64,000 nucleotides of DNA from Brachycybe producta (taxonomy: Eukaryota; Arthropoda; Diplopoda; Playtdesmida; Andrognathidae). This document shows, piece by piece, positions 1-43,734 of the stretch (position 1 is the first letter of the stretch; every line of letters begins with the position of its first letter). A model generated the notes under the pieces. The model saw only the letters and a program-made list of their open reading frames with translations. It was not told the DNA's origin and did no database searches. Both the position numbers and the translations under genes were made by a program. The stretch spans positions 1,116,001 through 1,180,000 of the forward strand of contig JAUPFP010000030.1 of the NCBI GenBank assembly GCA_036925085.1, read 5' to 3'.

Positions 1-21
1 TTCTGTGTGAAGCCGCTCTAA

Positions 22-313
22 TACCTTGTACACACACATGAATTCGAATTAAATGTGTTTAGGTGAATTATACGGAATCCCGTTAAGGACACATGAACCA
101 CATAAAAAATGAATTTATTATTAATATTTTAAAATTGAAATACCAACTCAATATTTTGTTAATAGTTTATATATTTAAGTATTAACTCAATATTTTCAGA
201 TTATTAAGTGAATAAATTGAATTCGACATATTGTTTGTTTGTCCTTCACAGGGCTCTGTAGAACACATTTATTATTTAAATGCATTTAAACTATCAGGTG
301 TGTGTACTAGGTA
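22..313 (+). mobile_element. R1 MITE, copy 1 (PIF/Harbinger-like)
   Basis: A 292-bp non-coding element with inverted termini, TACCTTGTACACAC on the left and the complement of TACCTAGTACACAC on the right. It is flanked by TAA on both sides (19-21 and 314-316). A 3-bp TWA duplication is typical of PIF/Harbinger transposons. There is no transposase, so it is a non-autonomous copy. Related copies lie at 2929, 9576, 48774 and 59680. Confidence 0.8.
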
Positions 314-535
314 TAAGGATCATAAAATAAAAGAATAAAATAAAATTATATTTATATATATATTATATATATAATATCCCAGGTCTGTGTTTGTGTGTAA
401 CGTCGGAATTTATATAAATTTGAATAAATGAACTGCTTTTTTTTTTCTCAAGGTCAACTATATGTTGCACCCTTCCCATCCAAGAACCCCATGATATTAA
501 ACTGGAGAGGGGGGAAAAGGTTGGAAAGTGTAGAC

Positions 536-553
536 GGGGGGGGGGGGGGGGGG
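536..553 (+). repeat. poly-G tract (18 G)
   Basis: An uninterrupted run of 18 G inside a purine-rich stretch (about 500-660). Nothing coding is supported in 314-680; open frames on the - strand there are low-complexity Pro/Leu/Ser translations of the C-rich complement. Confidence 0.9.
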
Positions 554-681
554 AAAGAAAAACGTGGAGGGAGTAAAAGTGGGAGGGGTGACTGAAATTG
601 AAATGAAAGAGTAAAAAGAAGGAACAAACGACGCGCATGCGCACACCAAAAAAAGGGAGGAGATAATAGTAGCAAAATTAA

Positions 682-846
682 ACTAGAATTTATCACGGGC
701 AATTGTGCCCAGCACTAGAATTTCTTTTGATCCGCCCTTTTATGAACGTCATCAATTTCTAATTGGTTTGTTACTTGATCTGACGTCATAAAAGGGCGGA
801 GGAAAAGAAATTCTAATGCAGGACACAATTGCCTGTGAATTTGGCT
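682..846. repeat. foldback element, about 165 bp
   Basis: The two arms are nearly complementary over about 60 bp each: GGCAATTGTG, then CACTAGAATTTCTTTT, then CCGCCCTTTTATGA on the left, and the same blocks in reverse complement on the right. The loop is about 30 bp. The inner arms carry AACGTCA and the palindrome TGACGTCA, a CRE-type octamer. No flanking duplication was identified, so whether it is a mobile element or a structural element is unknown. Confidence 0.65.
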
Positions 847-2813
847 CCCGTGACTTGTCATTTATGACGGGTTACCCCACTAGTTTTTATATAATTAATG
901 TCCAATATGGGGTTATATTTTTTACATCAATAGAAACCAAGTATGCTGCAACAAAGGTCTATACATTTCTTGAATCTCTTGTTGAGTTTAAAATTGTGTG
1001 CTCAAAACGTGGAGCTCAAGCCAAGTTTATTTCGAAAGATATTATAAAAAATATTCTTTAAGTAGCTTCTAAATTAAAGTTTACTCTAATTATGCAAATT
1101 ACAGTATTTATTAGGAAATTTACTGAATAACCACCACCACCACTAAAAAAATCCCCAATCTCAACTCCATTGTCAGGCTCGACCCAACCCTTCAACCTCT
1201 CCATTAACAACCTGCGATCCTATAAATTATCATCACCGAACTCTCTTCTCTCTCCCCTCATCTTTAACCATCCATCCCATTCCCCCTTCTTTCTAGAATG
1301 ACCAGTGAAAAAATCCCTTTCATCTCAAGAATTGAATTTCAATAATGCAAAACCCCCTTCTTCAGTTCAAAACTTGAATAAAAGTGTTCTTTAGGGAGGG
1401 TAAGGGGATGATGATGATGATAATGATGATAGGAAGGACAGCTACTTTCACACCTACTGGTTAGACAAAAGGTTTCTGACCACTGTCCACTCACGCATGC
1501 AATGCACAAGAACAATGTTCAGTGAAAAAAGTAGCAGCTTTTTTTTTCTCTTTTCTGAACAAACATTGTGGACAGAGCTAACCAACTACAGTAAGAACAA
1601 TAAAAACTCAAAAGGGCTTAAATCCTTTTTTATCCTCACTTTAAAAAAAAAATAGTGGTCCTTAAGTGAACGACACCAAAAAACCTTAGAAAATCCAACT
1701 TCCATTGTCATCCTAAGCCAATATAAATCGCATGACAAATATTGTCTACTGTACTGCCAAATAGAGCGAGTTTGTACCTTGAATCACACATGCTGAATAA
1801 AATCCAACTGAATTTCAGTTAGTAAGGTATTTACCAGAAACACCATATATTTTTGAGCGGAAAGGAACACAAAAAGTTTATTTCTTTTTTCTGGTGGTTT
1901 TGCAGCGTGTGTGATTCTTCCTTAAGAACGTGTACTACAGATCTAAATTGTGTAAAAATTTGGAGCCCAGCCCAGCCCAGCCCAGCAAGCCCACCAGACT
2001 TATGAAGCCCATAGAACTATGAAGTCCACAAGACCATCATCACGTTCACATTTATGAAAAGTTTGAGACAAGTCGCTCAATAGTTTGAGTAACATCTCTA
2101 GAAACATTAGAGAAACTTCTTTCTAAATCCCTTAATAGTTAGCCTCCACCTCCAACCATCGTCGTCTGGAGAGCTCCGAGAACCATTTGACAAAGAGATA
2201 AATTTCAATCATTAAATGATTGTCATTTAATTAATTATTCTTGAAAATATAATTAATTATTCTTGAAAAGTTTTGGTTTGGACAAAGTGTAGACATGTTT
2301 CATTATATAACATTGAAATTCATAGTCTGAGAAACTAGAAATATGCATCTTAATTCTTTAATTGGCTTTGGATGGTCATGAATAATTAAACCCACAGTCA
2401 AACATCCAATTTCAGTTTATCTTGACTTGAACAAATGTCTAACTTAGACAACGAAATTAAACAACAAAAAAAATATTCAATAAAGATTACTAAGTCCAAT
2501 CTTGAAGAACTAGTTTCAAATTATTTTATCAACAACAAAAAAAAAAAGATGACAGAGACATCAAAAAAAAAAATATTTATCTTCATTATAAAAACTGCTT
2601 TTCCTGTATTTTCAAATATAAATATAGTTTGATTTAATAGTCTTCTTCTTATTAGGTTATTTAAGTTTGACATCTAATCAAACATCTAATTAAACTTCTT
2701 TTGAACAAAAAAATTAACATAGGATGTGATCTCATTTTAAATACATTAAAAGTTAAAACTGTATAAAAACGAAAATCATTAGAAAATGTGGAACTATTAA
2801 ACTTTTTTTTCAG
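847..2813. other. gene-less stretch with short repeats
   Basis: I see no supported exon. It contains a GAT/AAT microsatellite near 1408-1430, four and a half AGCCC units at 1964-1986, an R5 module at 2131-2172 (AGCCTCCACCTCCAAC), and a short AT-rich duplication (AATTAATTATTCTTGAAAA, twice, about 2230-2270). Confidence 0.6.
1964..1986 (+). repeat. AGCCC tandem repeat
   Basis: About four and a half copies of the pentamer AGCCC. It lies in non-coding sequence. Confidence 0.85.
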
Positions 2814-3536
2814 TACAGGGTGGCATGTGTCATTTTTTCCACCATCACTTTTTTAATTGTTTATATTTTTTAAACCATATTATTATTGGTTTTAAAGTCG
2901 AGACTCTGAATTGGCGATCGGAGTCTAATACCTAGTACACACTTGATAATTTAAATGCATTTAAATAATAAATGTGTTCTACAGAGCCCTGTGAAGGACA
3001 CACAAAGAACATGTCAAATTCGATTTATTCAGTTAATAATCTGAAAATATTGAGTTAATACTTAAATATAATATATAAACAATTGACAAAATATTGATTT
3101 CGTATTTCAATTTAAAATATTAATAAAGTCAATTTTTATTTGGTTCATATGCCCTTAACAGGATTCCGTATAATTCACTTAAACACATTTAATTTGAATT
3201 CATTTAACTCATGTATGGTGTGTACAAGGTATAAGTTATTCGAGCTTCGCGACTCATAATCATCAAACCCTCGACTGAACTGCCGCTGGAGATGATCCAT
3301 AATAGCTGCTGCCTTTCAAAGCCGCTTGAAATATTGCATCATTGTAAAGAGACAAAACACGGAACAAGAAATTTTGAAATTTTATAGTTTTTTATTTTTT
3401 GTTGAAATTGTTGAGAAAATTATTAATTTGTAAATGAAGTCATTAGTACATTTCAGCTTTCAAACAAAAAAAAAAGATTGTTAAAAAACCTTAAAAATTA
3501 AAAAAAGTTATGGCGAAAAAAATACGCCACCCTGTA
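2814..3536. mobile_element. CAGGGTGG-terminal element, 723 bp, carrying a nested R1
   Basis: It starts TACAGGGTGGCATGTGT and ends with the complement of TTACAGGGTGGCGTATT. A TA borders each CAGGGTGGC terminus, as expected for Tc1/mariner-type insertion. There is no transposase. The R1 copy at 2929-3231 sits inside it, so the un-nested element would be about 420 bp. Confidence 0.6.
2929..3231 (-). mobile_element. R1 MITE, copy 2
   Basis: A reverse-oriented copy, starting TACCTAGTACACAC and ending TGTACAAGGTA, flanked by TAA on each side (2926-2928 and 3232-3234). It is nested in the CAGGGTGG element, so it inserted later. Confidence 0.8.
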
Positions 3537-3722
3537 AATTAAAATTAAAGAGAGAAAAAAAAAAACGAAGTTTAAAAAAGACAACTGGTTTTAAAAAGTG
3601 ACGTCATTACACCTTTAAAATTACAGATAGAAAAAAAAAACCGACCCAAGATAAGATATTACAAAAAGTTGACGAAAAACTTTTTCTTTTTGGTCTCCAC
3701 CCTTGTATAACTTGAGACAGAG

Positions 3723-3755
3723 AGGCGGAGTTTTCTCACGCGCGCACGGCACGTG
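3723..3755 (+). promoter_or_regulatory. HES gene A upstream block: CSL site plus HES-repressor site
   Basis: AGGCGGAGTTTTCTCACG (3723-3740) differs by one base from the block upstream of HES gene B at 10879. Its right end, TTCTCACG (3733-3740), is the complement of CGTGAGAA and fits the Su(H)/CSL consensus YGTGRGAA. CACGCG overlaps it at 3737-3742 and GGCACGTG follows at 3748-3755; both fit class C sites bound by Hairy/HES repressors. A TATA-like AT run lies at 3767-3779. Activation by Notch with self-repression is inferred. Confidence 0.6.
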
Positions 3756-3850
3756 TTGCGCCTCAATATATATATATATCTATAGAGAGACAACCAATGG
3801 CCCCCTCCACAGGCGTCGCGCGTCGCCGCCGCTCGTTCAAAAATGCAACA

Positions 3851-3858
3851 TTCCCACG
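3851..3858 (-). promoter_or_regulatory. Su(H)/CSL-type site
   Basis: TTCCCACG, the complement of CGTGGGAA, is a full match to YGTGRGAA. It is one of four such sites within 235 bp upstream of HES gene A. Confidence 0.5.
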
Positions 3859-3881
3859 CACATGCAGTAATAAGCGAGAAT

Positions 3882-3894
3882 GAGAGAGAGAGAG

Positions 3895-3925
<31 letters not shown>
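3882..3925 (+). repeat. GA tract upstream of HES gene A
   Basis: A nearly pure (GA)n run with one AAAAAG interruption. HES gene B has a comparable tract at 11216-11246 in the corresponding position. GA tracts can recruit GAGA-type factors in arthropods; that role is not shown here. Confidence 0.8.
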
Positions 3926-3929
<4 letters not shown>

Positions 3930-3931
3930 TG

Positions 3932-3963
3932 TGTGGGAATGTGCGGGACGTTGCATTCTCACA
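3932..3963. promoter_or_regulatory. Su(H) paired site (SPS) architecture
   Basis: TGTGGGAA (3932-3939) on the + strand faces TTCTCACA (3956-3963, complement TGTGAGAA) with 16 bp between them. Head-to-head CSL sites 15-17 bp apart define the SPS on which NICD/Mastermind dimers assemble at Notch targets such as E(spl) and HES1. The pair lies 420 bp before the start codon of HES gene A. The transcription start is unknown, so it may be in the promoter or in the 5' UTR. Confidence 0.7.
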
Positions 3964-4026
3964 CATTACAACGTGCACTCTTGTGAAGTTCAATGCATAC
4001 ATTGCAGGGAGGGACCCGGAGGAGGA

Positions 4027-4056
4027 GATGATGATGATGATGATGATGATGATGAT
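4027..4056 (+). repeat. GAT microsatellite
   Basis: About ten GAT units in the upstream or 5' UTR region of HES gene A. Confidence 0.9.
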
Positions 4057-4382
4057 CAGCAAAGCATTATCATCTATCCACACGCAATTGAAGCCTCCTC
4101 ATGCACTGTCGACGTCACTGCCAAAAAGTGCGCCTCTCGACTCACCCTGACCTCTCGGCACAACCACCACTGAAAACAAACTTATTCAATATTGGAATTC
4201 CATCACAAGAAGACGGTTTTTTTATTTCTTTTACCGAACAACTTGCTCATCTTCAAATTTTGAAGAGGTTAGAAAAACCCTTCTGCTATAACCATATTAT
4301 ATGCATGACCATTGACCATTACTCAAACTGACCCATAAAGATGACAAACTCAATCTAAATTAACCTAATTTAAATTAATTTG

Positions 4383-6658
4383 ATGTTTGTGATTCATAAC
4401 AGTGGACAGGAAGAAGCAGAAGAAGAAATGGAACAGCACACTAGAATTTCTAGTCCGAACATGGAACATCATCATCATCATCATCATCTAGGATTTCATA
4501 TCCGTGCTACGGCCACCACCTTGAACAGTCCAACCACAACCACCACCAATAATCCATATTCTATGGAAAAACCTTTGTCCAAAGGATCAGATCATCGAAG
4601 AGTAAGTTTAACAAATTTAAAACTAACACCATTAATCAAAACACGCTGCAATTGGACTTTTATCCCTATGTCACAGGCCTTCTTGGCTGCTTGGCAGAGT
4701 CATATTTTCAAATTTAAATATTTCAAAATGAAGAGAAAATAAGAGTGTTTTAAAAACTAGAAAGGTAGCTCAATTAATCTCTTTAATTTCACGTTTGATA
4801 TCTTTCAAAATACAACTTTTTATGTCAGTTTCAAAATGACCCAACTTTAAATAGCTTATATTTTTAAATTTTTGTCTATAAGAAAATTATTTCGAAAATA
4901 TTAACTGACTGTGCTACCCTTCTAGTTTTTTAATTTGCTCCTGAAATCCACAGAATAATCAAGATTTCGATAATCAGCCATTCAATAACAATTGTATTTT
5001 CATGTTATCAAAATAAACTTTGTATTTCGATTATTTCGAAACCCACATAAAAAGCTTATTTTGAAAGTGAAAGTATCTTTACAATTACGTGATTGAAGCT
5101 ACCCTTCTAGTTTCTAAAACACATTCAAGTTTCTCTTCAGTTTGCACTTGAAACACAGAATAATCAAAGTTCGAGAGGCGTTTGATAGCGAGTCACTGTT
5201 ACTGCTATGTTTATAGTTGGTATTTTGTAATCACACCCTTTCAGATCAGTAAACAGTGACTATAAACACGACATTATGATTACGGAAACTTACGAAAGTG
5301 AACCTAAATGTGTTTTTTCGTGCCCCAACAGAGCAACAAACCAATTATGGAGAAACGAAGACGAGCTCGAATCAATCACTGTTTAGGAGAACTCAAAGGG
5401 CTCATTCTCGAAGCCATGAAGAAAGATGTAAGTACAGTATATAAGACTAGATTAATATCGTGAAAAATTAACGATCATTTTAAAAAAAATTGTATAAAAT
5501 TTGCAGCCAGCAAGACATTCGAAACTGGAAAAAGCGGACATATTAGAAATGACGGTGAAACATCTTCAGAACATGCAACGGCAGCAAATGGCCGTCGCTG
5601 TGGCTACAGATCCCACAGTTATGACTAAATTCCGAGCAGGGTTTAACGAATGTGCCACCGAAGTGGCCCGTTACGTGAGTCGCATCGAGGGAGTGGAACC
5701 GGGAGTGCGACAAAGACTCCTCGTCCATCTTCGCAGTTGTCTCACTGGATTAAACTATCTGACACCCGGCACGTTCGCATGTCTTTTACCCGAGAGTGGC
5801 ATCGGGCAAGCAACTTTTATGCCACCGAATCTACAACCCGTACACGTTCAAGTATCGCCTTCTTCGACAAATGAGTCAACTCTCGGCGTTCTTCCACCGC
5901 AAGCGCCTTTCAATAACAATAATAATGCCGGTGGAGCGGGAGAATCTAGAATGTTTTCAGGATTGCACTTGGTTCCGAGCCGCCTTCCTAACGGTGACAT
6001 CGCTTTCGTCCTTCCACAACAACGACAACCACCTGCTCCAGTATCGCCACCGTCACAAGAAAGCGAAGACGAATCTCGTAACAGTACTCCGAGCACACCT
6101 CCAAATAGAACTAGTCCTCCAACGACACCACTCTCGTCCTTTCCCAATAACTCGCCGATGACCACTACTGCTACAACAACAAATACGGCCAATCGGCGCA
6201 CTCCCAGTGCATTCACTTCAGTTCTGAATAACGGAAGTGGCAACAACAGTTCCTTGTTACGAGTGAGCCACAACAGCAGTACTACATGCCCAACAATGTC
6301 AAGCGTGTTCAGTTCAACACCCTTCCAGACTAACAATGGCAACAAAAACATCCCTTTGTTATGCATCAAGCGTGAAGATCCTTCTCAATATCCTTCTCGT
6401 GTGAAGTCCTCATCAGGTTCATCAGAATCCAAAGATAGTATTCCCAGTGTCAACAATGAAAATCCTGCGAGAATCTCACCGCCACCCCCACCACCAATGC
6501 CGCCGCCGCCACCACCATCAAAATCTCCTCCTCCTTCGAAATGCAAATCACAGACTTCACAAAATTGTAATCAAAGCGAAGCTTATGACCTGTCTAGACC
6601 TTCCACCTCAAACGTTTGTTCCATGACAGACAATGACAAAATGTGGAGACCCTGGTAA
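4383..6658 (+). CDS. hes: HES/Deadpan-Hairy-type bHLH-Orange transcriptional repressor (gene A)
   Basis: Coding exons are 4383-4601, 5332-5427 and 5507-6658 (stop TAA). The two introns (730 and 79 nt) are GT-AG and phase 0, giving 488 aa. A stop at 4371 precedes the first Met; Met16 (4428) has a better start context. Exon 1 carries a 7-His run. The basic region holds the HES-specific Pro in [14 protein letters not shown] (about residues 75-88), and helix 2 holds [15 protein letters not shown]. The Orange domain is about 144-187, and [19 protein letters not shown] begins near 257. A Pro-rich tract precedes the terminal WRPW, the Groucho/TLE-recruiting motif. IKRE (psi-K-x-E) near 6366 may be a SUMO site. 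It should act as a DNA-binding Notch-effector repressor in the nucleus. Wording in the bHLH and Orange regions resembles Deadpan/HES1 more than E(spl); the exact orthologue is unresolved. Confidence 0.95.
4647..5190. mobile_element. repeat cluster in intron 1 of HES gene A
   Basis: 4647-4731 (GCTGCAATTGGACTTTT and on) is a dispersed repeat also found at 21599-21682 and, more diverged, at 33702-33800. 4757-4975 and 5046-5190 are two degenerate R2 copies, recognisable from AACTAGAAAGGTAGCTCAAT, GATATCTTTCAAAATA and TACCCTTCTAGTTTCTAAAA. The repeats account for most of the intron. Confidence 0.6.
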
Positions 6659-7570
6659 TAATAGGGGGGGTCCAACGACCTAACGCCCCCCCCCCTTTCC
6701 ACTTTGATCGACCTCACTTTAACTTTCTCACCTTACGTAAGCGAAATGATGATAGTTTCTCTGGGAGTGGTGGCGACCATCAAAAGCACCCCCCCCCCAC
6801 CTCCCTTATGAAAAAAGTATCAAAAATCCACTCCTACCCTCTCTCCACCCTCCACATTTTTATATAGACCTGGGAATCTGAAAGTTCATAGAGGAGAATT
6901 ACTTTAAATGCCTTGTTACCATCACCTTTCAGACACTTATGACCTTACCTTCTTTTATGATAACACAGAGGAGACTAATGTCATTCTCAAATGGAAATAT
7001 GTCACCAACGAAAAGCAACTTTTATTTTCTGTGAATATTATTATTTATAATGTGTGTGTTTTTAACCTATATTCATCTTAGCACTTGAAGTTCAACTTTG
7101 AACACTCAGAACAGGGTTCCAAAATAGAAAAAAAAAACCCACCTTGTTTTATTGAGTACTCTCTACAGAGGGTTCAAGTTTGAAGTTGAAGCGCTAAGTT
7201 TCCCTTTTTGAATTTGGGACCTAGATGGCACCTTTCTAAAAACAACGGCAAATTAATGTCCTGCCCTTAAAGCCCATGGGTTAGGATGGCAATTTTATGA
7301 TAAAAACTCATTAGTTTTGTCATCCTCATGAGACCTGGTCTGCTTTGTATTTCTGGTGGAATGTATATACGGGCCACACATGGGCCTCATCGAATTTTCT
7401 ACAAGAAAGCATTTAATTTAATAATATAATTAATTCACATAAATAAATAGCATGTTGTTTCAACTTGTTTGTACAAATTGACAAATTGTATATAAAATTA
7501 TATAAGAAAAATATATTAAAATATCTCATTAAATGTATTATTGATTCATTCAAATAAATTAATAATCAAT
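6659..7570 (+). other. probable 3' UTR of HES gene A
   Basis: Candidate poly(A) signals AATAAA lie at 7442-7447 and 7553-7558. An ATTTA-containing AU-rich stretch is near 7038-7050, of the kind associated with short-lived HES mRNAs. I found no GTCTTCC (miR-7 seed match) here, unlike gene B. The transcript end is inferred, not seen. Confidence 0.4.
7077..7198. repeat. imperfect hairpin repeat in the presumed 3' UTR
   Basis: CTTAGCACTTGAAGTTCAAC on the left pairs imperfectly with the complement of GTTGAAGCGCTAAG on the right. A related stretch at 53278-53390 shares ACTCTCTGAGCAGGGTTCC-type sequence, so this is a dispersed repeat rather than a gene-specific structure. Confidence 0.45.
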
Positions 7571-9267
7571 TTTAAAACATAAGTTTTTCTTACCAATTTT
7601 TTTGAGTCTAAAAAGCGCTTTTTTTCAAATAAGCAAAATTCTGGAATGACAAAAAAACGAACAATTGTTCAATATAAACTATTTTTTATGGTTAAATTTA
7701 AAAAAAAAAGACAGCGGAGAAATGTACAAAAAAAATTATTAACAATTGATGCAGAAAAATTCCAACATTTTGGTAAAAAAAAAAAAATTCAAAAGGTCGT
7801 GAACTGAAGTTTTTTTTTGTGTGTAAAAAATGGATTATGAATAATAATAATAAAATTCACTAGTGTTGATGTACTTTTCATAAATAAGGTTATATTTGCA
7901 ATAGAGTGGCTGTGGGTGGGTGGGTGTAAAGGAAGAGAGGTAATCTAGCTACTAACAAGGGTGTCTCTTTACCCTCTTATGGTGAATAACCTCTATAAAT
8001 ACAATACAAGAGGAGGAGGGTATTTAAAAAAAACACCTGAAGGTTCGGATAAATGAAGCTATCAACTCAACTAATTTTTTCCCACGTTCTAAGGTATATC
8101 TATTCTCCATATGACGTCACAAATTACAAGAGAGCAATGCAAACGTCACCTGAGACTGTCCCTCAGGACCCTCAATCCTCCCCTCCCCCTCCACAATATA
8201 GAAACAGGTGAGATTAAGAAATGTGGGGGTGGGGTCGGGTAGAGGGTAGAGGGTAGAGAGGAGGACTTTTGAAAAGATTCAAGGAACCGTGCAAAGAACA
8301 AATTATAATGTTGCAACTTCAGTTGAATACTAAAATGTGGACTTAATAAAAGGAAAATTTAAAATTAACACCAAAAAAAAAAATCCAGAAATCTAATTAA
8401 GAGTCTGTTTGAAGTGTTTGTATAAAATATTAAAATAAATGTAATGAGAACAACAATTATTTTTTTTTACAAGAAGACAGAACTTACATATTGATTTAAA
8501 TTAACCTGGTTAAGAAAATGTGTTTTCAATAATAAATTAAATTTAAAATTCTTAATTCAACTCTATTGCTGAAACACAAAGACAACCCTCCTGATCACAA
8601 TTTAAAATTGTTTAAAATTATTCTTAATTACCATTGGTGCAAAACGAGATTGGAATCTCAAAGTCACACTGAATTAATATTATGCAAAATATATGTACAT
8701 TTACTTGCATTGGAAACATATTTAGCTAGAGCGTTCTACCCCAGCCATATTATACATGGAGGTAGCTCAACTAAGAGCTTTGCCAAGGGCCCAAGGCTAT
8801 GGAGCACCTTATAACTGAGTGTAGCCAATAGAGCCTAAATTGCCTTTTTTGTTTAGTTCTGAAAACTACCAATAGATGTCACACTGAGGCCTGCTACTAC
8901 CTTTTGTAAGAATAGATCAAAAAAAGACAAATCCCTAAATATAAGGTTTTTTTGCAAAGCAGATTTGCATGCAGTGATTGCTACGTTAAAGGCGCAGCAG
9001 TGCATTATTGTTTTCCCTGTTTCTTACGAAGTTCAACATTTTGTAAAATAAAACATCATATATGTTCGTGTTTTATAACTTCAATAAAACCCAGATTAAA
9101 AATATTAAACATCTGTAACCAAAATAAATAAATAGGTTGCGTGCAATTTCATGAATTGCATTAATTGAACCAAAAAGCAACTTAGAAACACAATCAACAT
9201 GAAAATGACAATCTTCAAAAATAATAGTATTAAGTCAATTGTCACTTATCAAACTATGAAATCTTTA
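7571..9267. other. gene-less stretch
   Basis: AT-rich sequence with a G-rich purine patch near 8222-8265 (GTAGAGG units) and homopolymer runs. I see no exon, RNA gene or complete repeat. Confidence 0.55.
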
Positions 9268-9575
9268 ACGTGGTTTTAAAGTGGAAATACACCACCCTCC
9301 CTCAAGACTCTTGCATGATTATTCTGTCTTTCAGGAGCAAAATTAAGATAAACTTGAAAATATTTTAGAAACTAGAAAGGTGACCCCTCAACTACGTAAT
9401 GTGTCACGTTGCTGTCATTTTATAGCTGTTTCGAAATGACCCAACTTCAACCAAGACAATCTTGTTTAAATGTTCGTCTATTAAAAAAATTATTTTGAAC
9501 AATATATATACAATATCAACATGAAAATACCATTTTAAGTGATTCAGTTTTTAAAACACTTTCAATTTCGCCTTA
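9268..9575. mobile_element. R2 foldback element, interrupted by R1
   Basis: It begins with GTGGTTTTAAAGTGGAAAT and continues with TTTTAGAAACTAGAAAGGTG and a complementary second half. The sequence breaks at 9575, where R1 copy 3 is inserted. Confidence 0.65.
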
Positions 9576-9876
9576 TACTTTGTACACTCACATGAGTTAA
9601 ATGAATTCAAATTAAATGTGTTTAGGTGAATTATACGGAATCCAGTTAAGGACAATGAACCCAAATAAAAATTAACTTTATTATTTATATTTTAAATTGG
9701 AATACTAAATCAATAGTTTATAAATTATATTTTAAATATTAATCTCAATATTTTCAGATTATTAACTGAATAAATTGAATTCGACGACGCATTGTTTGTT
9801 TGCCCTTCACAGGGCTCTGTAGAACACGTTTATTATTTAAATGCATTTAAATTATCAGCTGTGTGTGTGCTAGGTA
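9576..9876 (+). mobile_element. R1 MITE, copy 3
   Basis: A 301-bp copy flanked by TTA on both sides (9573-9575 and 9877-9879). The TTA here against TAA at other copies supports a TWA target preference. It inserted at the edge of an R2 element. Confidence 0.8.
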
Positions 9877-9935
9877 TTACTGATACTCCTGAAAAGGAGT
9901 GACCATCATTGTTTTAATTAAACTTTCTATCTCTT

Positions 9936-10060
9936 ATACCTTGTACACACAGTCACATTTAAATGTATTTAAAAATTAAACATAATAAGTTCCTATATAT
10001 GTGTACATGTTCATTTAAGTGTAAATCCATTTAAGTCTCTTAAACACATTCTGTTCTAAA
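9936..10060. mobile_element. R1-related solo terminus
   Basis: TTA then TACCTTGTACACACAG followed by TTTAAATGTATTTAAA resembles the end of R1 that carries TTTAAATGCATTTAAA. I found no matching second terminus before 10.4 kb, so this is a truncated or diverged relative. Confidence 0.4.
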
Positions 10061-10878
10061 TGAGTTGTTAACATCTCTCTCACTATTGTTCGCCTTTTAA
10101 TACTCTTCGATTTATATTTTACATTTTTTAAAAGTGATATGATAAATTCCACTTTAAATAGTCTAAACCAAATAAAACGACAAATTAAAAAAAGAAATAA
10201 TTAACTTATAAAACACAAAATAGTAAGTAATTAAAATCTATCAAAAGATTCCAAAACAAAATTCACCCATTTTGTTGGTTATGTTGTCTAGTAATCAGTT
10301 GGGTGATATAATTGTATGGAGACCTAGTATCTAGTATTCAGCAAAAAAATCAAATAGTTGAATACTAAAACAAAATTTTGAGTGTTTGAAATGAAAAGTG
10401 AGAAAGTAAACATTTTCAGAGATGAATTAATTGTCAACAAAATTCTAAAAAAAGGTAGCATATATTACAAAGGTAACAAAGGTGTAAAAGAATGGCATAA
10501 GTCCGATATTTCATTTTTTTTTTGACTTACACCACTATCATTATTCTAAGGGGCTTTTTTATATATACATTGTAACATACATGTATATATGAAGGATTCA
10601 CAATTAATTGTTATAAATGTGGCTCAAATAAATGAGTAAATAGAATCTAACAAAAGCATTCGAAAGAGAGAAAGAGATAAATAGATATGAGAATTGACGG
10701 ATGCATCAACAAACAAATGTTCAAGGTTGATGATCTGCATTCTGCTGCAACAAGACGGTAAAAATAGATTGAAAATGAGATAACAACCACCGAGAAATTA
10801 TAAAATATATTCTGCAGTTGAGTAGAGCGTGAAAACAAAACCAAAAAAGAAAAAAAAAACCCGGTTGCTGCTTGAAGG
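10061..10878. other. gene-less stretch upstream of HES gene B
   Basis: AT-rich intergenic DNA. No exon or complete transposon is recognisable; short open frames on the - strand have no family resemblance. Confidence 0.5.
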
Positions 10879-10933
10879 AGGCGGAGTTTTCCCACGGTTG
10901 TCTATTACCCGCCCACGTACCAAAAGGCACGCG
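10879..10933 (+). promoter_or_regulatory. HES gene B upstream block: CSL site plus HES-repressor site
   Basis: AGGCGGAGTTTTCCCACG (10879-10896) matches the gene A block in 17 of 18 bases. TTCCCACG at 10889-10896 is a full CSL match in reverse. GGCACGCG (10926-10933) fits the class C site bound by Hairy/HES proteins. No head-to-head partner for the CSL site is seen within 30 bp, unlike gene A. Confidence 0.6.
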
Positions 10934-11171
10934 TACTGACTACTATGGCACACAGGTGCCTCACCACACGACAGTCGCTCGCTCACTCGCTCGCCCGCCC
11001 GCCCGTCACTAAAGTAAAATACCTGCGCTCACAGTGCAAACAGGTAGATCAAAACTTAAAGCAACACCAGCACCCAGCAAAAAAAAAACGTCATTCTGAA
11101 ATTTCACCAATGAAAGACAAGAGATTGTTCAAAGCAGTAGCAGCACTCCTGAATAAGTGGAATATTCAACA

Positions 11172-11211
11172 CACGAGACCTAAAAACACACGTTGACTTG
11201 CTTGCCACGCG

Positions 11212-11246
<35 letters not shown>
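11172..11246 (+). promoter_or_regulatory. N-box, class C box and GA tract upstream of HES gene B
   Basis: CACGAG (11172-11177, N-box CACNAG) and CACGCG (11206-11211) are further HES-type binding words. A GA tract follows at 11216-11246, 138 bp before the start codon, mirroring gene A. These are short motifs, so their individual significance is modest. Confidence 0.4.
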
Positions 11247-11248
<2 letters not shown>

Positions 11249-11384
11249 CCGTGTGCAATTTGAATGCCGCCACGCTTTTATTTTTTCCACAAACATAATA
11301 ACAGTGTATTAACAAACATCAACTGAAATATTTAAAATAATCCAATTTCTATATAAAATTGTGCGGATCTTTGTATAGAAAAAA

Positions 11385-14300
11385 ATGCCTGCAGAAAAAG
11401 TGACGACAAAAAGTGAAAATAGACGGGTAAAGAAGAATTTGTTTTTCACTCAAATTGAAATTCTAGTGTCTGTGTTTTGACTAGCAAACTTTTTTCATAT
11501 AATTTAAAAATGCAAACGGCTCGCAAAATCCTAATTATTTTATTGTCTTTCAGGTGCAAAATGAAAAAACAAAACAAAAAATGAAGTGGAATGTTTTAGA
11601 AACTAGAAGGGTAGTTCAATCACATAAGGGTATTTTTTCATCTCGATATCTTTCAAAATAAGCTTTTTATCTCAGCTTGAAAATTTTTGTGCGTAAAAAG
11701 TTTATTTTAAAAAAATATCAACATGAAAATATCCTTAAGTGATTTAGTTGCTTTTCTACTTTCTAAAGCATTTTCTAGTTTTTTCTTTTAATTTTTCGTC
11801 TGAAAAAAAAATAATCAAGAGTTTTGTAAACAACTGATTTGAAAAATTATTTAAAAAAAAGCTGGGGCAAAAAAAAAGTTCTTTAGGCAGACGACCACAG
11901 ACCACCTGAACATAAAACTCAATATTAATTAAATTCTATATGTAAAACAGAGCAATAAACCATTGATGGAGAAAAGGCGCCGAGCGAGAATCAATCAAAG
12001 CCTTTCGGAACTAAAGAACCTCATATTGGACGCTATGAAAAAAGATGTAAGTGTCATTAATTATTAACCACAAATAATAAATCACAATATCGAATGACGA
12101 CAATAAAACACGTCCTTTTACATAAAAAAACGGTGGTTCCCAAACTTTTTTTTGGTCATGGCACAGTATTATTTTGCCTTGAGAAAAAGCGGCACATCTA
12201 GCAAAACTCCCGGCACACTGATTTAGTAGTGCATATACGTGTAATAGCCTAGTATTGAAATAGTTAAAAGTTCACTTGAAAATATTAAACTATATTAACA
12301 TATGAAATATGACATCTAAATTATTGGGCGGCATCCCTGACAAAACGGCACATGTCCCCTTTGGGAATCACTGATAATACGACCTCGTAAAGGCTACAAA
12401 TTTGAAATTTCATATACTTGTTCATATTTTATTTGTACAGAAAATTGAAACATATTGGTCAATAATTATTTCATGTAACAGTTTGAAAATAACGTTTGAA
12501 GAATATCGTTATATATAGAAAAAATAGCTTTAATTATGAGGATCACTATTGGAAATGGGCACATTGTCTTCTTGTAATTTAACATTTAATAAGAAAACTT
12601 TATTAATTATTGTATTCTTGTTTCAAATGTTTTCATAGTTTATGTTTTAAAAATCTCAAAGCAAAATGAATTTCGTATTTATGTAATTAAAAAGATGAAA
12701 AAATATTTTCGTATATTTTTTTTCATCTTTGAAATTAGAATAAATACGACATTCATTGAGATTTTTAAAACATAAATTATGAAAACATGTTTCGAAACGA
12801 AAATAAACATCAAAAGGTGGCATATGAAGCATATTATCACCAATATTAGTATTGAGAGTGATGGTAGAAATTATTTCTCAAATTAATTAATTACAATTAA
12901 TAATTGCATTAATGTTTCCACAATACAATTTTTATTGTTGACAAATATGTTTCCATTTTTGGTCAAAAAAAATTTTATCACCTTGTTAACTAGTTTCCAT
13001 AATATTCTATGTTAAACATTTATCTGCACCAACTGGTATAATAGTTCTACATTTTTCAATTAAAAAAAAACTATTTCCAAATTTCAGACATCCAGAAGTA
13101 ATAAATTGGAAAAAGCAGACATTTTAGAAATGGCTGTTCGACATTTGCAAAATCTTCAACTCCAGAAACTGACCTCAGGTAATTAGTAATTACGTACATT
13201 TAATTTCACCAACCAACCGACTTCAGTTTACATTTAGGCTAATTATTGTACAGAACATCCTAGTCCATTTGAAACGTTTATGCATATAACAAATTAAAAA
13301 AAACGATTATTATTTAGTAAAAGCACAACTAATTAATTGTCTGAAGTCATTTATGCCCTAAATAGCTATACAATTGTCAAAACCACTAACAGAAAACGCA
13401 CAATCAAATCCTTTTTTTTTTTTTCTTCTTCTGGATAAAAACCTGTTTTTAAGAAAGAAATCAAATTATGAGACTTTCCAAAAAAATTATTATTGGACAC
13501 ATGCTATTTCTATGGTATCAGAATGTACTCAAAAGGGTTTTAATGGTCATTACGTGTTTTGGTGTACTTGGATGCCAATTTTTCGTCTTAGCCATCATCA
13601 TTCTCTTTGATGTCTGATTAAAATAAACAATGGTTTTCTGAATGCATGCATGCACTGAAGAACAGAAAAGACATTTCAAATATACAATCAATAATAAAGT
13701 TCTATTTTCTATTGTAGTTTCTGCAACAGCCACAACATCCTCTGAGGATGAATTGGGCGTCCACCAACATCAAAAGCACAACAAATATCGTGCCGGATAT
13801 AATGAGTGTGCCAAGGAAGTGTCGCGTTTTTTGGATACGGTCGATGGCATCGATTCGGTTGTACGAGGGCGATTGGTTGCTCATCTCTTGAATTGTTTGA
13901 ACGAAATGTCCTCCGAATCATCAACAATCAACAAAGGAAACAATAACAATAATAGACCTATAGTGCCTCCTGCATGCATCACTGCAAAAGATGACGATGA
14001 CAGTGGTTGCAATGTGACAGACTATAGTGTGAGCATGGACATGGAACCATCCTCCTCGGATGACACATCATCATTATCGTCGTCGTCGTCGTCGTCACCG
14101 GTGTCCTCGTCTGTCGATTGTCCACTTCCGGTCACCTCGACATCTTCCGTTGCCCAACCTATTCATATCCACATTCCAGCCACTTCTATTCCTCTCAGAA
14201 TTTTCTCATCAAATGGACATGATCAGGAAAAAGGAAATTCACCAAAAAATTCTACGGTAGTTTCTTCGCCTGCCGCCTTTAATGGACTTCAACTCATTCC

Positions 14301-14562
14301 TACTAGGCTGTCAACGGGTGAATTTGCCTTTGTAGTTCCGAATTCCCAGTCATGCAGTCCCATTCCCACCATAAATGGCACCGTGTCTTCTTCGTCCTCA
14401 TCTTTGGTGTCTTCTATTTCTTCGTACCCACAATCATCATCACAAAATTCAAAAATTGATCATATCCATCATGCGCGTCCTTCTTCCAGTTGTGGTTATT
14501 CGAAACGCAACAAACCTATTCCTTTAGTGATCAAAGACGAGTCCGTTTGGAGACCATGGTGA
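11385..14562 (+). CDS. hes: HES/Hairy-Deadpan-type bHLH-Orange transcriptional repressor (gene B)
   Basis: Coding exons are 11385-11426, 11951-12046, 13088-13178 and 13718-14562 (stop TGA). All introns are GT-AG; the first two are phase 0 and the third phase 1. The protein is 357 aa. Exon 1 gives only 14 residues before [14 protein letters not shown]. Exon 2 has exactly the length of its gene A counterpart (96 nt). Helix 2 contains [15 protein letters not shown], and the Orange domain is about residues 98-140. Ser-rich stretches follow, then [19 protein letters not shown] near 266. The tail [16 protein letters not shown] joins a CtBP-like PxPLVIK word, a psi-K-x-E SUMO consensus (IKDE) and the Groucho motif. 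Role: nuclear repressor, probable Notch effector. It is a paralogue of gene A, 4.7 kb downstream on the same strand. The extra third intron splits bHLH from Orange. Confidence 0.94.
11515..11830. mobile_element. R2 foldback element in intron 1 of HES gene B
   Basis: Left half: TCTTTCAGGTGCAAAATGA, then TTTTAGAAACTAGAAGGGTAG. The complementary half runs to about 11830. R2 pieces also occupy intron 1 of HES gene A. Confidence 0.65.
12131..12373. mobile_element. hAT-like MITE in intron 2 of HES gene B
   Basis: The 243-bp unit begins CGGTGGTTCCCAAACTTTTT and ends with the complement of CAGTGATTCCCAAAGGGG. CAGTGGTTCCCAAA-type termini are typical of hAT elements. The flanking octamers do not match, so the target duplication has decayed or the ends are slightly misplaced. 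Confidence 0.55.
12632..12790. repeat. long inverted repeat in intron 2 of HES gene B
   Basis: The left arm TTTATGTTTTAAAAATCTCA recurs in complement on the right, with GTATTTAT and AAAGATGAAAAA blocks pairing further in. The arms are about 70 bp and the loop short. There are no target duplications and no coding potential. Confidence 0.55.
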
Positions 14563-14670
14563 TTTTTCTTCCGGATTTCAGAAATTGAAATGAAAGTGCT
14601 TCTTTTGCACATTAGCACTGAACTCAATTTGAATTCAGATTGGCAAAAATCTTTTTTCTACCTAGTCTTA

Positions 14671-31495: not shown

Positions 31496-32849
31496 ATAGC
31501 CAAATCTGCAACAGATGGAAACCTCATCAAACTATACATTACAAATGATAAATCTGCAAGCAATTTAATGAATAAATGACTAATGGACAAAGAAATAAAA
31601 AAACCTCCATACACACACACACCCGACTAAAATTTTCCACCAAAAAAACCCATCCAACTTCTGTGAAAACCGTGCAAAACTGTCCTTTACCATTTATCTC
31701 CTATGAAGAAGAACGTAAAATTTAAAAAAAAGCCCAACTCACTCAACAAAACTATTTTTTTCAGGCTTAATCTAAGTCACGAAGTCAATACCATTATATA
31801 TACCTGAATTTTGCAAACGAAACACGAAAACGTAATTTATTAAATTGTACAATAAAGAAAGAAAAGCTTCTAGCTTTTTATTAAAAAAAACTGCTACCAT
31901 GCCAATGTTTCTCATTACGACAGGTGCCAGCCAACAGGTATCATTTGGCACACCACAATGCATATATGAGAGCTAACAGTTTTTATATAGATTTGGGCCA
32001 CCTATTATCCTGTGTGAAGACCTACAGAGACCTACAAACGTTATTGTTAGCCAAACCAACTAGGACCAATTTCAATCAACAATTTGCACTAATCACAAGC
32101 CACATTTTTATAAAAGCCCACCAGACCCACAAAGATTAAGGGCTTTACATAAAATGGCCAGCCCATTGCCGGGCCAGTGCATGGGCTGGACTTTACCAAC
32201 AGCTCACTAGCCCATTGGCTTTATTTAGAGCTCTCACTTACGAGCGACTTTTTGACGCACTGTCGCAACAATAAAAAGAAGCCAAAATAAATGGAACATA
32301 TTGTTTCAAATGGCACTAGACAGACGTGTGACAGTTTCGTAGCTGCGTCTAAAAAGATGCAACTTGATTCATTTTTTTGCATCGCGACAGTCGTGACCTA
32401 TGGAACGCATAAATTTCGTTTTTCATGACGAATACTGTCTCATGACAAAATGTCGCTAGTATGTAACGGTCGAATGACAATCGCGAGCAACTGCGACTTG
32501 CGACAAAACTGTTGCAAAACAAAATGTGCAAAAGCAGCCCTAGGATACTGATCCTGTGGGCATTGTGACAGGTATATTCGTTGCAAACCCTTTGTAAATG
32601 GCCCATGAGCTTTATGTAGGTCTCTAATCCTGTAGTGGGCATTGTGACAGGTATATTTGCTGCAACCCTTTGTACATGTTTGTTGTTTTATACCACTCAA
32701 AAGTTGCTACAATCAAGGCACCAAATATGCACAGTACATTACACACAAGTTTAGAATAAAGAAAAAGTTCTTATAAGTTCATTTTCGTCATTCCCACGAT
32801 CTTTTGTGTTGACCCCAACACCACATCTTAAATATATAAGTACCGAGAC

Positions 32850-32883
<34 letters not shown>

Positions 32884-33394
32884 TCTCAAAAAGTCTGACC
32901 TCACGTCTACCTATTAGAAGAGTACACTACTATCACCTCCCCTCTCGAAACTACAACAAAAAAAATCCTTTTTCAAATTCCAACTTTCTATAAGTGGCAG
33001 CCAGCCACGTTCTGTGGTAGGATGCTTGCGTGGGACGTCCTGTGCATGCGTGCCTCTTATGTTGAAAAGTATGCACGGCGTCACGGACTCGAGCAACCAA
33101 TTTTCAATTCTTGCATGACGGGCGCCCAATTTATATACAATGTAAGCGGCAGCGACACGTATAAACAAAAAAAAACCAATGATGCTGGATAAGACTCTTC
33201 TTTTCATTGCACCAGTCAATAATTTGGATTGCACCCTGTAATTTCCATTATTTTACATGTTATGTAAGCTTTGATCATTTAGTAAAATTATACAAATGAA
33301 AGTGAAACAATTGGTATTATTTACTTAGGGTTACTCTGCATTTTAGAAGCAACATCAAGAAGAAATTGAAAGTGTTTTCGTAACTAGATTTGCA
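31496..33394. other. gene-less stretch with local duplication
   Basis: ATCCTGT, then GGGCATTGTGACAGGTATAT and GCAACCCTTTGTA, occur at about 32551-32597 and 32627-32673, a duplication with about 76-bp period. 32851-32881 is a GAT array. 32120-32220 is a GC-richer patch with repeated GCCCA. No exon supported. Confidence 0.45.
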
Positions 33395-33620
33395 ATTTAA
33401 GGTGGTTTTAAATGGTAAACGGCGTTTCTCGAACTGGTGCAATAACTTGAGAAACTTGAAAGTGTTTTAGAAACTAGAAAGGTAACTCATTCACATAAGT
33501 TTTGAAAATGGTCCAACTTCATGCAAACGATTCTTTTAAACTTGTGTAAAACAACAACAAGAAAGTTCCATTGAATGATTTAGCTACTCTTCTAGTTTTT
33601 AAACCACTTAAGTTGTTTTT
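33395..33620. mobile_element. R2 foldback element, diverged
   Basis: Contains AAGGTGGTTTTAAATGGTAA, GTGTTTTAGAAACTAGAAAG and CTACTCTTCTAGTTTTTAAA in the usual R2 order. Confidence 0.6.
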
Positions 33621-35954
33621 CTGTCAAATGTATTCTATCAGCTGCATCAGAACACATTGCAATTGTTGTTGGATTTCTATCTTCCAGTTTTAACAATGCA
33701 TTTGGCATGCCGCAATTGTAGACCTACTTTAGTCCCTCTACTACAGGGCCGTCTTGTCTTGTTGGTTGTTTTTAAGAGTAATTTTTAAAATTTTTAAAAT
33801 AACCATAAGATTTTATGGCCTTTTGACCTAATAAAATACACAAAAAAGGTGTTTCATCTTGTTGTTTCTCAATGTTTTGTGGTTTGTTTACTTATGGTAT
33901 ATATTTCTACTTTTCTCTATTAATGTATTCGTTGCAAGATTTGTTTGACATAATACAAACATCCTTCATACATTATGTATTTATGTAGGGTGCAATTTTA
34001 ATAAAATTTGACACAAATCCGATTATGAACTGAAAACTGATTGTAAAAAACATTCTTTTCAACCCCTTTTTAATTTTTTCTTTATATATCTTTCTCATCA
34101 TATCTGATGGAGAATTTCGGTGTTTTTTTTTTCGAAAATAAATTTTCGTTAAATTATTATATAAAAACAAGATCTACTTTTTCACGAGAAGACAGACAAC
34201 ATTTTCGTTTTCATGATCTTAATCTGTGTTTTCGGCGTTCATGTAAAATTATAGACATGAAGACAACTTGTTTTCTCATTTTTCTTTTTTTTTTTCAAAC
34301 TAAAGATTATGAAACTTGATAACTATAGAGATTTAAAACGTCAAGATATTTAATAACTTTATTAATAATTATATAATAGGCCTACCTATAATAGGAATAT
34401 CATCTTCAAACGACTTTCTGTTGACACATTCTAAATAATCTAATATTTTAATAAATGATTCGAATTCTTATTTTTTTTATAGACTGCACCTTTTTTTTAT
34501 TATTTTCTTATCTTGATTTTCATTAATTTTGTAAATTGTCTTGTAATTAAAACTTCAGAAATTAATTCAAACTTTCATGGTTTATATATAAAACAGTCCC
34601 CATTTAAGGCCTTACACATAGAAATAAAAGAAAAACACCAAAAGGGCTCCATAAAGCTTTTGGAAAGGAGGGCCATATATACGAATATTGAAAGTGCCGG
34701 GTGGGCCAGACCGAAAAAAGACATACAAAGTTATACAAAATTGTTAAATTAACAAAAATGTTCTGTATACCATGAGAGAGTTCATTATAGAAAAAAAGAT
34801 CTAGAATTATGACAGTCTTACCTTTTGATGTCACTGCTTGTGTGATATTATTTTATGATTGTCATATCATTAAAGACAGTAGTCAATGGCAGTATAATGA
34901 CAACAATTTTCATAATAATACTTTGCATTTTTCTTTTGGGCCTGTTAGAAAAAATCGAAAGTTTAAGAAAAAAACTAGAAAATTCAATCATTTTTATGTT
35001 AAGATCTTTCATATTTATTCAATTTGAAAATGAAATTTATCTTAAAAATATGAAAAAAAAAAAATATTCTTAAAATTTTTGTTTTCAAATTATAGTCAGA
35101 TAAAAATCTTCACAAGCCGAATAAAATCTTTAAGTGGGCCGAATTTGGCCCTTCGGGCTTCGGCTATAATTTGAGGACGTCTGACCTACAGAATCATATG
35201 TGTGTGTAATTCCAATGTCGCAAATGTTGACATCTGATAACATTTTTAACATAAGACATGTTTTTATCACATTATATATATATGTCCACTACCCTCCACC
35301 CGACCCCCACCCCTCCCTTTCAGCAAACTAAATAAGATTCTATGTAATATAACGAAAATTACAGGTGTAAGAAACATCCTAGAAAAGTCATATGATGTGG
35401 TTTTTATTGCAATTTTGACAAACACAAAAGCGATATTATCATTGTTTTTCATCATTTCTCTCAAACAAGATACAATGTCGCAAGTTCGCAACAAATATCA
35501 TAAGATAACAGACTCACACGCATAAAGGACATCTCTTGGTCGTTACTTTATTAGATGATTACGATCACAAAAAAGTCTTAACTTTTGGGACCACGATACG
35601 ATCATGATACGAGTAGAGAATACCAACAAAAAAGAAATAAACATGAAATGTTTTTGATATTTTAAGTTTTTTTTTTTCTAAATTGTAGGTCTAACACTAA
35701 AAACGAAAAAAAAAAACACATCCACAACATTTTTCTATCATGTTTTTCGTGACTTTTTTCTTGAAGAAAAGTAGAAATGCATTTATGATTGAGCCCACAC
35801 ATAACTTTTACAGGATGTTTCAAACGAAATAAAACGAGACATGTCTCTCTGAAACTCAAACTTAGCCCCAGGACGCCCATGAGCCCCCTCCAATAAGGGC
35901 CTGTTTCAGCAAAGTGGGATGGTTGGCACTTGCTTCACTACAGATTAATGTTGC
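33621..35954. other. gene-less stretch with repeat fragments
   Basis: 33702-33800 is the third copy of the GCAATTG repeat. 34810-34870 resembles 51805-51870 (GATGTCA then TTATTTTATGATTGTCAT). 35090-35190, read on the - strand, starts CAGACGTCCTCAAATTA and contains GGGCCAAATTCGGCCCAC, like an hAT end. No exon seen. Confidence 0.4.
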
Positions 35955-36350
35955 TTAGAAAAACTACTTTTAAAAATATTTTTAATGTACTAATTACAAT
36001 AAAAAGTGTCTCATAATTAAGAAAACACTTCCATATTTTCTTGTATTCCATTTAAACGCTCAGAAAAGAAGAAAAAGCCTTGATTGCACCCACAACTGGC
36101 AAATTGGTTTCGTCATTTTTCCGTTACCACTGATTCGACTGTGACGTTATTATCTCTTCCTTACTATTCCAATGCTAGAACAAAATACAGAATTGTACAG
36201 TTGTGGCTGGAATCAAGGCTTTTTCTACTTTTCTGAGCGTTCAAATTGAAAAAACAACAAATTACGAAGGTAGATTAATGTTTTCTTAATTATGAGATGT
36301 TTTTTTTGGTTGTAATTAAGACGTTAAAAATATTTTTAAAAGCTTTTTTT
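35955..36350. mobile_element. foldback element, about 395 bp
   Basis: The arms pair over long blocks: TTAAAAATATTTTTAA, TCTCATAATTAAGAAAAC, AACGCTCAGAAAAG, AAAAAGCCTTGATT and CCACAACTG, each present in reverse complement in the right half. There is a short unpaired centre (about 36098-36200). No target duplication identified. Confidence 0.6.
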
Positions 36351-39300: not shown

Positions 39301-39703
39301 CCTATACATTTTCAACAGGGCATTCGAGTTCGGGTTTGACGATTTGGATTTTATTTGGATTTAAGGATAAATGAAACAGATTTGGATTTACTTGTATTGC
39401 AAATTTAATAATTTGAATTTATAGTAATATATATTTTAATATGGTTTTAAAAATATTTTGTTAGATTTGGATTTGGAAATTCGATATGAAATGTACCAAT
39501 GAAGATTTGGATTTGATTCATTCTACTTTCAAATAAACAAACTCAACAGTCTCATTCGCGCACCTTCTGGTTATCAGGACGAAACTTCGCAAAGTTAAAT
39601 CCTATGACCGTGCTCCGGGTAACATAGGGTACCCCCGTTGTCCCTGACAACACAACACACATACACACACAAGACAGACAGATATTCACAGAAGGTCCTC
39701 CAT
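36351..39703. other. gene-less stretch with R5 modules
   Basis: R5 appears on the - strand near 37900-37925 and on the + strand at 38418-38450 (GTTAGCCTCCACCTCCAAC). Other features are a TG array at 37703-37724 and repeated GATTTGGATTT words at 39340-39520. No exon supported. Confidence 0.45.
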
Positions 39704-39860
39704 TATAGAAATGGTACAATGAAGGGCTGCAAGATATGCTAACGGTGAATACATGTATTCAAACAGAGAAACCCTCGATCATGCTCGATGAACAACTTCT
39801 GTGTGAATTAATAGCAAACCGTAGAGCTAAGCAAGGCCTTGCCCCTTCTTGAATTTTCGC
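39704..39860 (+). pseudogene. LINE reverse-transcriptase C-terminal remnant, broken
   Basis: Translation gives EMVQ, a stop, then RAARYANGEY, resembling the VQRRAARY word downstream of the RT domain in CR1/Jockey-type LINEs. Stops and at least one frameshift follow. Similar sequence occurs near 20380. A decayed fragment, moderate to low certainty. Confidence 0.4.
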
Positions 39861-41419: not shown

Positions 41420-41922
41420 CAAGTGACGAAAGCTAAATCTGAAAATGACTAAATTATGCAGAAAATAGCAGGATGCGGGTTGACAGTGTTTTTTTTAATT
41501 TTAAATGGATATATTTATTGTACTAATAGATTTAGGGACTTGATTGCGTTAAGACCCCTCATTACACGTACACATAATGTGAGGATCGCACCACTGTGGC
41601 ATAAGGGCAATTGTAGAAGAGCTTACTTTTTTAATAGATTCATTCCTTTGTGGAATAGTTTGCCAAGCGATATGGTTGAGTCTGTTAAAAGTCTGTTAAA
41701 AGTTTTAAATATAAACTAAGTTGAAATTGTTAAATTTTGTTCAGTCCTCTGCATTCATATAAATTGTTTGTAAAAGTTTATTGTAAATGTACTATTTTTA
41801 TTGCTAATTTTTGTATTACTTGTGACAAACAATGTATTGTCTGTTGTGCATATTGCTTTTTGTACCATTTATGTAGCTACATGTCAGCAGAGTCTTGTAC
41901 TCCTTTGTGGTAAATAAATAAA
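41420..41922 (+). pseudogene. 5'-truncated non-LTR retrotransposon (LINE) 3' end
   Basis: An open stretch at 41456-41719 contains RTHNVRI and FFNRFIPLWNSLPSDMVES, the characteristic C-terminal end of CR1/Jockey/RTE-like ORF2 proteins. A 3' UTR of about 200 bp follows, ending in TAAATAAATAAA (41911-41922), a typical LINE tail. The RT and endonuclease domains are missing, as expected for a 5'-truncated copy. Confidence 0.7.
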
Positions 41923-43349: not shown

Positions 43350-43700
43350 TAAGGTAGTTTGAAAGTGTAAACGACTCTCGAACACTGTTCATTCTGCCTT
43401 TCAATTGCAAAATGAAGAAAAACTTGAATGTGTTTTAGAAACTAGAAAAAGTAGCTCAATCTCTGAAGAGAGTATTTCTAGTTGATATCTTTCAAAATAA
43501 GCTTTTTAGAGACAGAAATTAAAAAATATTGTCTACTTAAGGTTAAGACTTTTTTTATATATATAAAGTGACATTTTAAGTGCATATTTTGAAAGATACC
43601 AACATGATAATACCATTCTAGTTTATAAACATTTTAAGTTATTCTTCAATTTACACATGAAAGACAGAGTAATGAAGAGTTTGGCTGACGTTTTACACTT
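43350..43700. mobile_element. R2 foldback element
   Basis: It begins TTAAGGTAGTTTGAAAGTG, then GTGTTTTAGAAACTAGAAAA and GATATCTTTCAAAATAAGCT. The second half is complementary but shortened. Confidence 0.65.
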
Positions 43701-43734
43701 TACTACATTCTCAAACACTGACTAAACTGTCTTA

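Follow-up and report, generated by a model that had tools for sequence, protein, structure and literature searches.

The E(spl) modules of Drosophila, whether paired CSL sites (SPS) or combinations that follow a 'local activator plus Su(H)' logic, place a CSL site in a HES-type promoter beside a second site that would set specificity (PMC3390367). Mammalian HES promoters that carry RBPJ and PRC1.6 (E2F6/MGA) likewise combine CSL sites with other docking factors (PMC8325870). In insects and crustaceans, HES-family repressors are clustered in the E(spl) complex (PMC4575448), and E(spl) feed-forward repression is supported by PMC3536677. Here we describe an 18-bp block upstream of HES genes of the diplopod Brachycybe producta, two copies of which lie in the stretch analysed, 64,000 nucleotides of contig JAUPFP010000030.1 (assembly GCA_036925085.1, positions 1,116,001 to 1,180,000 of the forward strand; hereafter the window, in whose coordinates features are listed). 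On the evidence of the sequence, we estimate at roughly 0.6 the probability that this block is a composite Notch-response element of hairy-type HES genes, acting with a partner of CSL and with HES feedback.

The block has in common with the Drosophila modules the joining of a CSL site to a second site, but its second half is a GC-rich word at a fixed 2-bp spacing and orientation, rather than a further CSL site or an activator site whose placement is loose. Compared with the mammalian promoters it matches E2F and E-box sequences only loosely. The genes concerned form a cluster of HES-family repressors, as in the E(spl) complex, but one of hairy/HES type with introns, while putative E(spl)-type proteins are encoded on contig C1.

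A preliminary description of the window had reported that the upstream regions of two HES paralogues, HES-A and HES-B, share an 18-bp block ending in a CSL site. Both copies are present on the plus strand and differ from one another by one base:

3723 to 3740, plus strand: copy A of the 18-bp block, AGGCGGAGTTTTCTCACG, upstream of HES-A
10879 to 10896, plus strand: copy B of the 18-bp block, AGGCGGAGTTTTCCCACG, upstream of HES-B
3723 to 3730, plus strand: GC half of copy A, AGGCGGAG, the proposed partner-factor site (RGGYGGAG, kept in all five copies)
10879 to 10886, plus strand: GC half of copy B, AGGCGGAG, proposed from its sequence
3733 to 3740, minus strand: predicted CSL/Su(H) site of copy A, reading CGTGAGAA on the minus strand
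10889 to 10896, minus strand: predicted CSL/Su(H) site of copy B, reading CGTGGGAA on the minus strand

A genome-wide search, the check named beforehand, found the 18-mer to be neither common nor part of a transposon. Within the window there is no third copy at up to 3 mismatches (chance expectation 0.01). In the 295-Mb genome, with reversed patterns as specificity controls, AGGCGGAGTTTTCYCACG occurs exactly at 2 places, both in the window (control 0), and with up to 2 mismatches at 8 (2 with none, 3 with 1 and 3 with 2). At up to 3 mismatches the control exceeds the real count (125 places against 101), so that only the low-mismatch tail is special. Five of the eight places precede HES genes and share their coding strand. 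Besides HES-A and HES-B these are HES-C and HES-D, in the same cluster (the two further copies on this contig, to the left of the window at distances of 9.9 and 25.3 kb; the block of HES-C is on the minus strand, like its gene), and B', a sixth gene and close relative of HES-B on contig C1, where the block precedes the first ATG by 545 bp. The block thus stands at three HES genes of this genome beyond the two first described; it belongs to five HES promoters on two contigs, and is nearly restricted to such promoters. The 16-mer GGCGGAGTTTTCYCAC occurs 4 times in the genome, always in the HES cluster, at A to D; Markov models (orders 1-4), fitted to 326 kb of fetched DNA with the block copies included, predict 0.08-0.16 occurrences in the genome.

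An origin as a transposon or common repeat was considered and rejected: only 8 copies exist at up to 2 mismatches, and the DNA on either side of the five HES copies shows no in-register alignment, save for B and B'. When the spacing is relaxed (GGCGGAG, 0-12 bp, TTCYCAC), 90 places are found against 3 in the backwards control; by hand count 4 are HES copies, 7 are singles, 31 are GGCGGAGAGTTCCCAC and 48 are GGCGGAGCCAACTGAAGTTCTCAC and its variants. The last two groups look like repeat families that join GGCGGAG to a CSL-like word. The opposite arrangement (GTGRGAA, 0-12 bp, GGCGGAG) gives 24 places against 31 in its control and was not found near HES-family genes, the nearest of the places listed lying ~155 kb from any of 15 Hairy_orange matches.

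The five copies yield the consensus RGGYGGAGTTTTCYCACR, in which only R1, Y4, Y14 and R18 vary. The right 8 bp were correctly described as a CSL site, since all five match YGTGRGAA, and Y14 and R18 coincide with the two variable positions of that consensus. Relative to the published highest-affinity form, [T/C]GTG[G/T]GAA (PMC4176381), the sites of A and B' (GTGAGAA) deviate at one base. Exactly two T separate the GC word from the CSL site, and the centres of the two halves are ~10-11 bp apart, about one helical turn. An SPS, in which two CSL sites stand head to head about 15-17 bp apart, was entertained for the block itself and rejected: each block has one CSL site, and a scan of the 500 bp preceding each of the five copies found no YGTGRGAA that could serve as a second. 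As for the remainder of the block, which the preliminary description had left unexplained, it is better delimited as the 8-bp word RGGYGGAG, and the adjoining AGTTT possibly belongs to the CSL half.

The block looks constrained because synonymous sites across the cluster are saturated and the flanks share little, except between B and B'. Across the five cluster genes, A to E, synonymous divergence (dS) is 2.5-3.3 in 4 of 10 pairs and undefined in the other 6; among A to D alone it is 2.5-3.3 in three pairs and undefined in three. For B and B' dS is 0.62, and these two genes have 43 bp around the block and the first coding exon in common, with little else that long. Beyond the block, the flanks of A to D fall out of register alignment. 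With low-complexity words excluded, the longest same-strand word common to A to D (within 1 kb on either side) is GGCGGAGTTTTC, 12 bp in length and inside the block; none of 200 shuffled sets exceeds 9 bp, a length reached by 4 of them, and the real set with the block masked gives 8 bp, or 9 if both strands are counted. In all 10 promoter pairs the in-register block match ranks third or better on the same strand, and in 7 it is first or tied for first. For A to D, simple leftover identity from duplication is unlikely on this comparison.

Downstream of every copy, on the same strand, stands a C-box, GGCACGYG. It starts at +25 (A), +47 (B), +55 (B'), +80 (C) and +148 (D) from the block start, 7-130 bp beyond the block; the spacings of 7 bp at A and 29 bp at B were as originally reported:

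3748 to 3755, plus strand: predicted C-box-like HES/Hairy site of HES-A, GGCACGTG
10926 to 10933, plus strand: Hairy class C site of HES-B, GGCACGCG, matching the consensus in PMC449821

The order and orientation seen in A and B hold in all five copies, the minus-strand gene included. GGCACGYG occurs 10 times in 448 kb of strand, the five block-linked occurrences among them, and is absent from the 4.6 kb upstream of HES-E, which lacks the block, and from 3 kb ahead of each of three further HES-family genes. As A and B are the copies first noticed and B' is related to B, the cleanest new cases are C and D. Hairy binds ggCACGCG(A/C)C (PMC449821), and GGCACGCG, found in B, B' and D, has this published core, CACGCG; A and C differ in carrying the variant GGCACGTG, and the sites are predicted ones.

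Taken as a composite Notch-response element, the block is probably a switch by which Notch turns these HES genes on. Its 3' half, TTCYCACR (YGTGRGAA on the other strand), would bind CSL/Su(H), giving repression without signal and activation with the Notch intracellular domain and Mastermind. The 5' half, RGGYGGAG, would present a second factor on the same face of the DNA and in fixed register, helping CSL at these promoters. HES protein would then bind the C-box 7-130 bp downstream and, through its WRPW motif and Groucho, silence its own and its sister promoters. We infer CSL binding and feedback from the sequence and from known HES biology; the partner and the same-face geometry are likewise proposals. 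The second factor would most likely be a zinc finger of the Sp/KLF family, which recognises GC or GT boxes with a GGGCGG or GGGTGG-like core; this type is preferred because the R1/Y4 variants GGGCGG, AGGCGG and AGGTGG resemble GC/GT boxes, although we regard the assignment itself as doubtful.

Several observations weigh against this reading. The full GC-box core GGGCGG is present in copy C only, with AGGCGG in A, B and D and AGGTGG in B'. Three of the eight low-mismatch places are not at HES genes (L004, with 1 mismatch, and L006 and L007, with 2 each); the 10 kb of surrounding DNA fetched for each shows no HES exon, and they are treated as chance, without further explanation. Part of the identity between B and B' may reflect recent descent. 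Some same-strand matches score above the block, in D/B' and C/A (dispersed or simple repeats) and in C/B' (chance words), and an opposite-strand match outscores it in D/B, D/B', C/A and A/B. Finally, within the DNA read, the GC half is missing at HES-E, at three further HES-family genes and at three HEY copies, so that HES genes do not generally require it. At two genes on C1, which we take to be E(spl)-type from their basic regions, and at one HES-family gene on the window's own contig (C30), the best match to the block has at least 6 mismatches (both strands, 3 kb including the bHLH exon).

Among the alternatives, the one that survives best is that only the CSL half functions, with a preferred AGTTT flank, and that RGGYGG is an ancestral promoter leftover. 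It draws on three copies that we presume to be HEY-type from their first exons (L013 at C1:9505012, L014 at C1:9533990 and L047 at C24:1397500). These keep CAGTTTTCCCACG without RGGYGG, their shared remnant being only AGTTTTCCCACG; because AGTTT thus stands next to the CSL site at promoters without the GC half, it may be part of the CSL half. The three have very similar upstream regions and first exons (~96% identity between the two on one contig; the third, on another contig, compared by eye), one being tied to a gene 27 kb away through its similar first exon, and they appear to be either recent duplicates or haplotype copies in the assembly. Yet RGGYGGAG is kept in four paralogues whose synonymous sites are saturated, where the adjoining DNA is not, and the 12-bp core AGTTTTCYCACG, taken by itself, shows no enrichment over the genome (41 places against 41 in the control, 6 of the 41 being at HES or HEY genes). 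We consider this explanation improbable.

Slightly less probable still is a core promoter or transcription-start element, an option that the preliminary description had raised, in which RGGYGGAGTT positions polymerase, with the CSL site simply next to it. The block is upstream of and co-oriented with all five genes, and a TATA-like word lies near it in A (44 bp after the block start) and D (+90). However, the other three have none downstream before ~+470, and the distances from the block to the first ATG (506-1428 bp in the five genes) and to the next downstream CCAAT (71-228 bp) are widely variable, which argues against such an element; the one constant partner of the GC half is the CSL site.

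Of similarly low probability is a platform of the PRC1.6 type, in which an E2F6-like GC half and MGA/MAX-like CACGTG/CACGCG words would help CSL to load. GGCGG and CACGYG do stand on either side of the CSL site, but E2F sites are GGCGGGAA-like, a form that GGCGGAGTT fits poorly, and B' has GGTGG. Moreover, B, B' and D carry the Hairy core CACGCG and not CACGTG. In favour of this platform, mammalian HES1, HES4 and HES5 have E2F6 and L3MBTL2 present and show reduced RBPJ binding without them, and docking through E2F and E-box sites has been suggested (PMC8325870).

The weakest alternative, and a very improbable one, is that the CSL site overlaps a Rel/NF-kB site. The consensus of such sites is GGRNNYYYCC; GGAGTTTTCC in B, C and D fits it, but GGAGTTTTCT in A and B' breaks it while keeping the CSL site, and the conserved RGGYG would be left unexplained.

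HES genes are known to have CSL sites, SPS and C-boxes; a GC half specific to them and in fixed register was not found in the literature searched. Work on HES promoters and clusters, on GC boxes and on SPS yielded no description of such a block, in a search that leaves most subscription literature outside and is no proof of absence. Five 12- or 13-mers of the block, searched in full text, returned matches only under unrelated titles, and in three papers that treat HES clusters (PMC8166818, PMC8320183 and PMC4172395) the word 'promoter' occurs 0 times in the text available. With some reserve, and at a little under even odds, we suggest a composite previously undescribed: a CSL site fused in fixed register, at one helical turn, to a GC-type partner site and followed by a HES C-box, which would mark hairy-type HES genes and not E(spl) or HEY genes, and would have been kept while the rest of the paralogues' promoter DNA diverged.

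The two genes of the window are as follows:

4428 to 6658, plus strand: HES-A, coding exons 4428-4601, 5332-5427 and 5507-6658; 473 amino acids, HLH and Hairy_orange domains, WRPW end
11385 to 14562, plus strand: HES-B, coding exons 11385-11426, 11951-12046, 13088-13178 and 13718-14562; 357 amino acids, HLH and Hairy_orange domains, WRPW end

Both Pfam domains are above cut-off in both proteins. A tblastn search with the window's HES exons over 164 kb of the contig found five HES genes, in the order E (minus), D (plus), C (minus), A (plus) and B (plus). They form an intron-bearing cluster of mixed orientation at C30 ~1084600-1130600, of which window positions 1-14600 are the right end. WRPW closes all five, as seen in the proteins of A and B and, before the stop, in the DNA of C, D and E. 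B' also matches Hairy_orange and HLH. The genome holds at least 15 Hairy_orange matches, five of which (A, B, B', C and D) have the block; for the remaining three Hairy_orange genes, on C4, C5 and C7, none of the 8 block places is on those contigs. A profile search with PF15952 (Bearded class) gave no match in the genome, and control searches were equally silent.

Further elements accompany the block in the two promoters:

3851 to 3858, minus strand: predicted second CSL site in the HES-A promoter, TTCCCACG on the plus strand
3882 to 3925, plus strand: interrupted GA tract of HES-A
3932 to 3963, no strand assigned: predicted SPS of HES-A, a head-to-head CSL pair, TGTGGGAA N16 TTCTCACA
11217 to 11246, plus strand: GA tract of HES-B

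As had been noted, the GA tracts precede the coding sequences, which begin at 4428 and 11385. At least five GA units in a row are present in A, B, C and D and not in B'; such tracts are possibly GAF-type sites or simple repeats. The SPS of HES-A, a canonical one, starts 191 bp past the block, and HES-C has a similar one with 17-bp spacing. The strict pattern TGTGRGAA N14-18 TTCYCACA occurs at 2 places in the whole genome, one being the SPS of HES-A and the other, at C65:182657-182689, a near-perfect palindrome, TGTGAGAACTAGGCATTATGCCTAGTTCTCACA. Around HES-A, copies of an AT-rich repeat, probably a mobile element, lie in both orientations (~1-310, 2930-3230 and 9570-9880, by eye) with words like ACCTTGTACACAC and CAGGGCTCTGTAGAACAC. 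Elsewhere, five tandem units of the telomere word TTAGG match at 7,853 overlapping places (control 4), all those listed being near the start of C1; both this and the putative E(spl)-type proteins would suit an arthropod.

Base-composition models predict ~32,000-50,000 CSL sites in this genome, far too many for such sites alone to mark direct Notch targets. A short and nearly invariant composite specific to HES genes offers a definite candidate partner site of 8 bp in a set geometry, and, coming from a comparison within one species' genome, a search word for other arthropods. If the previously undescribed composite suggested above holds, all genes of the HES cluster that carry it could answer Notch together, by way of a CSL partner of their own.

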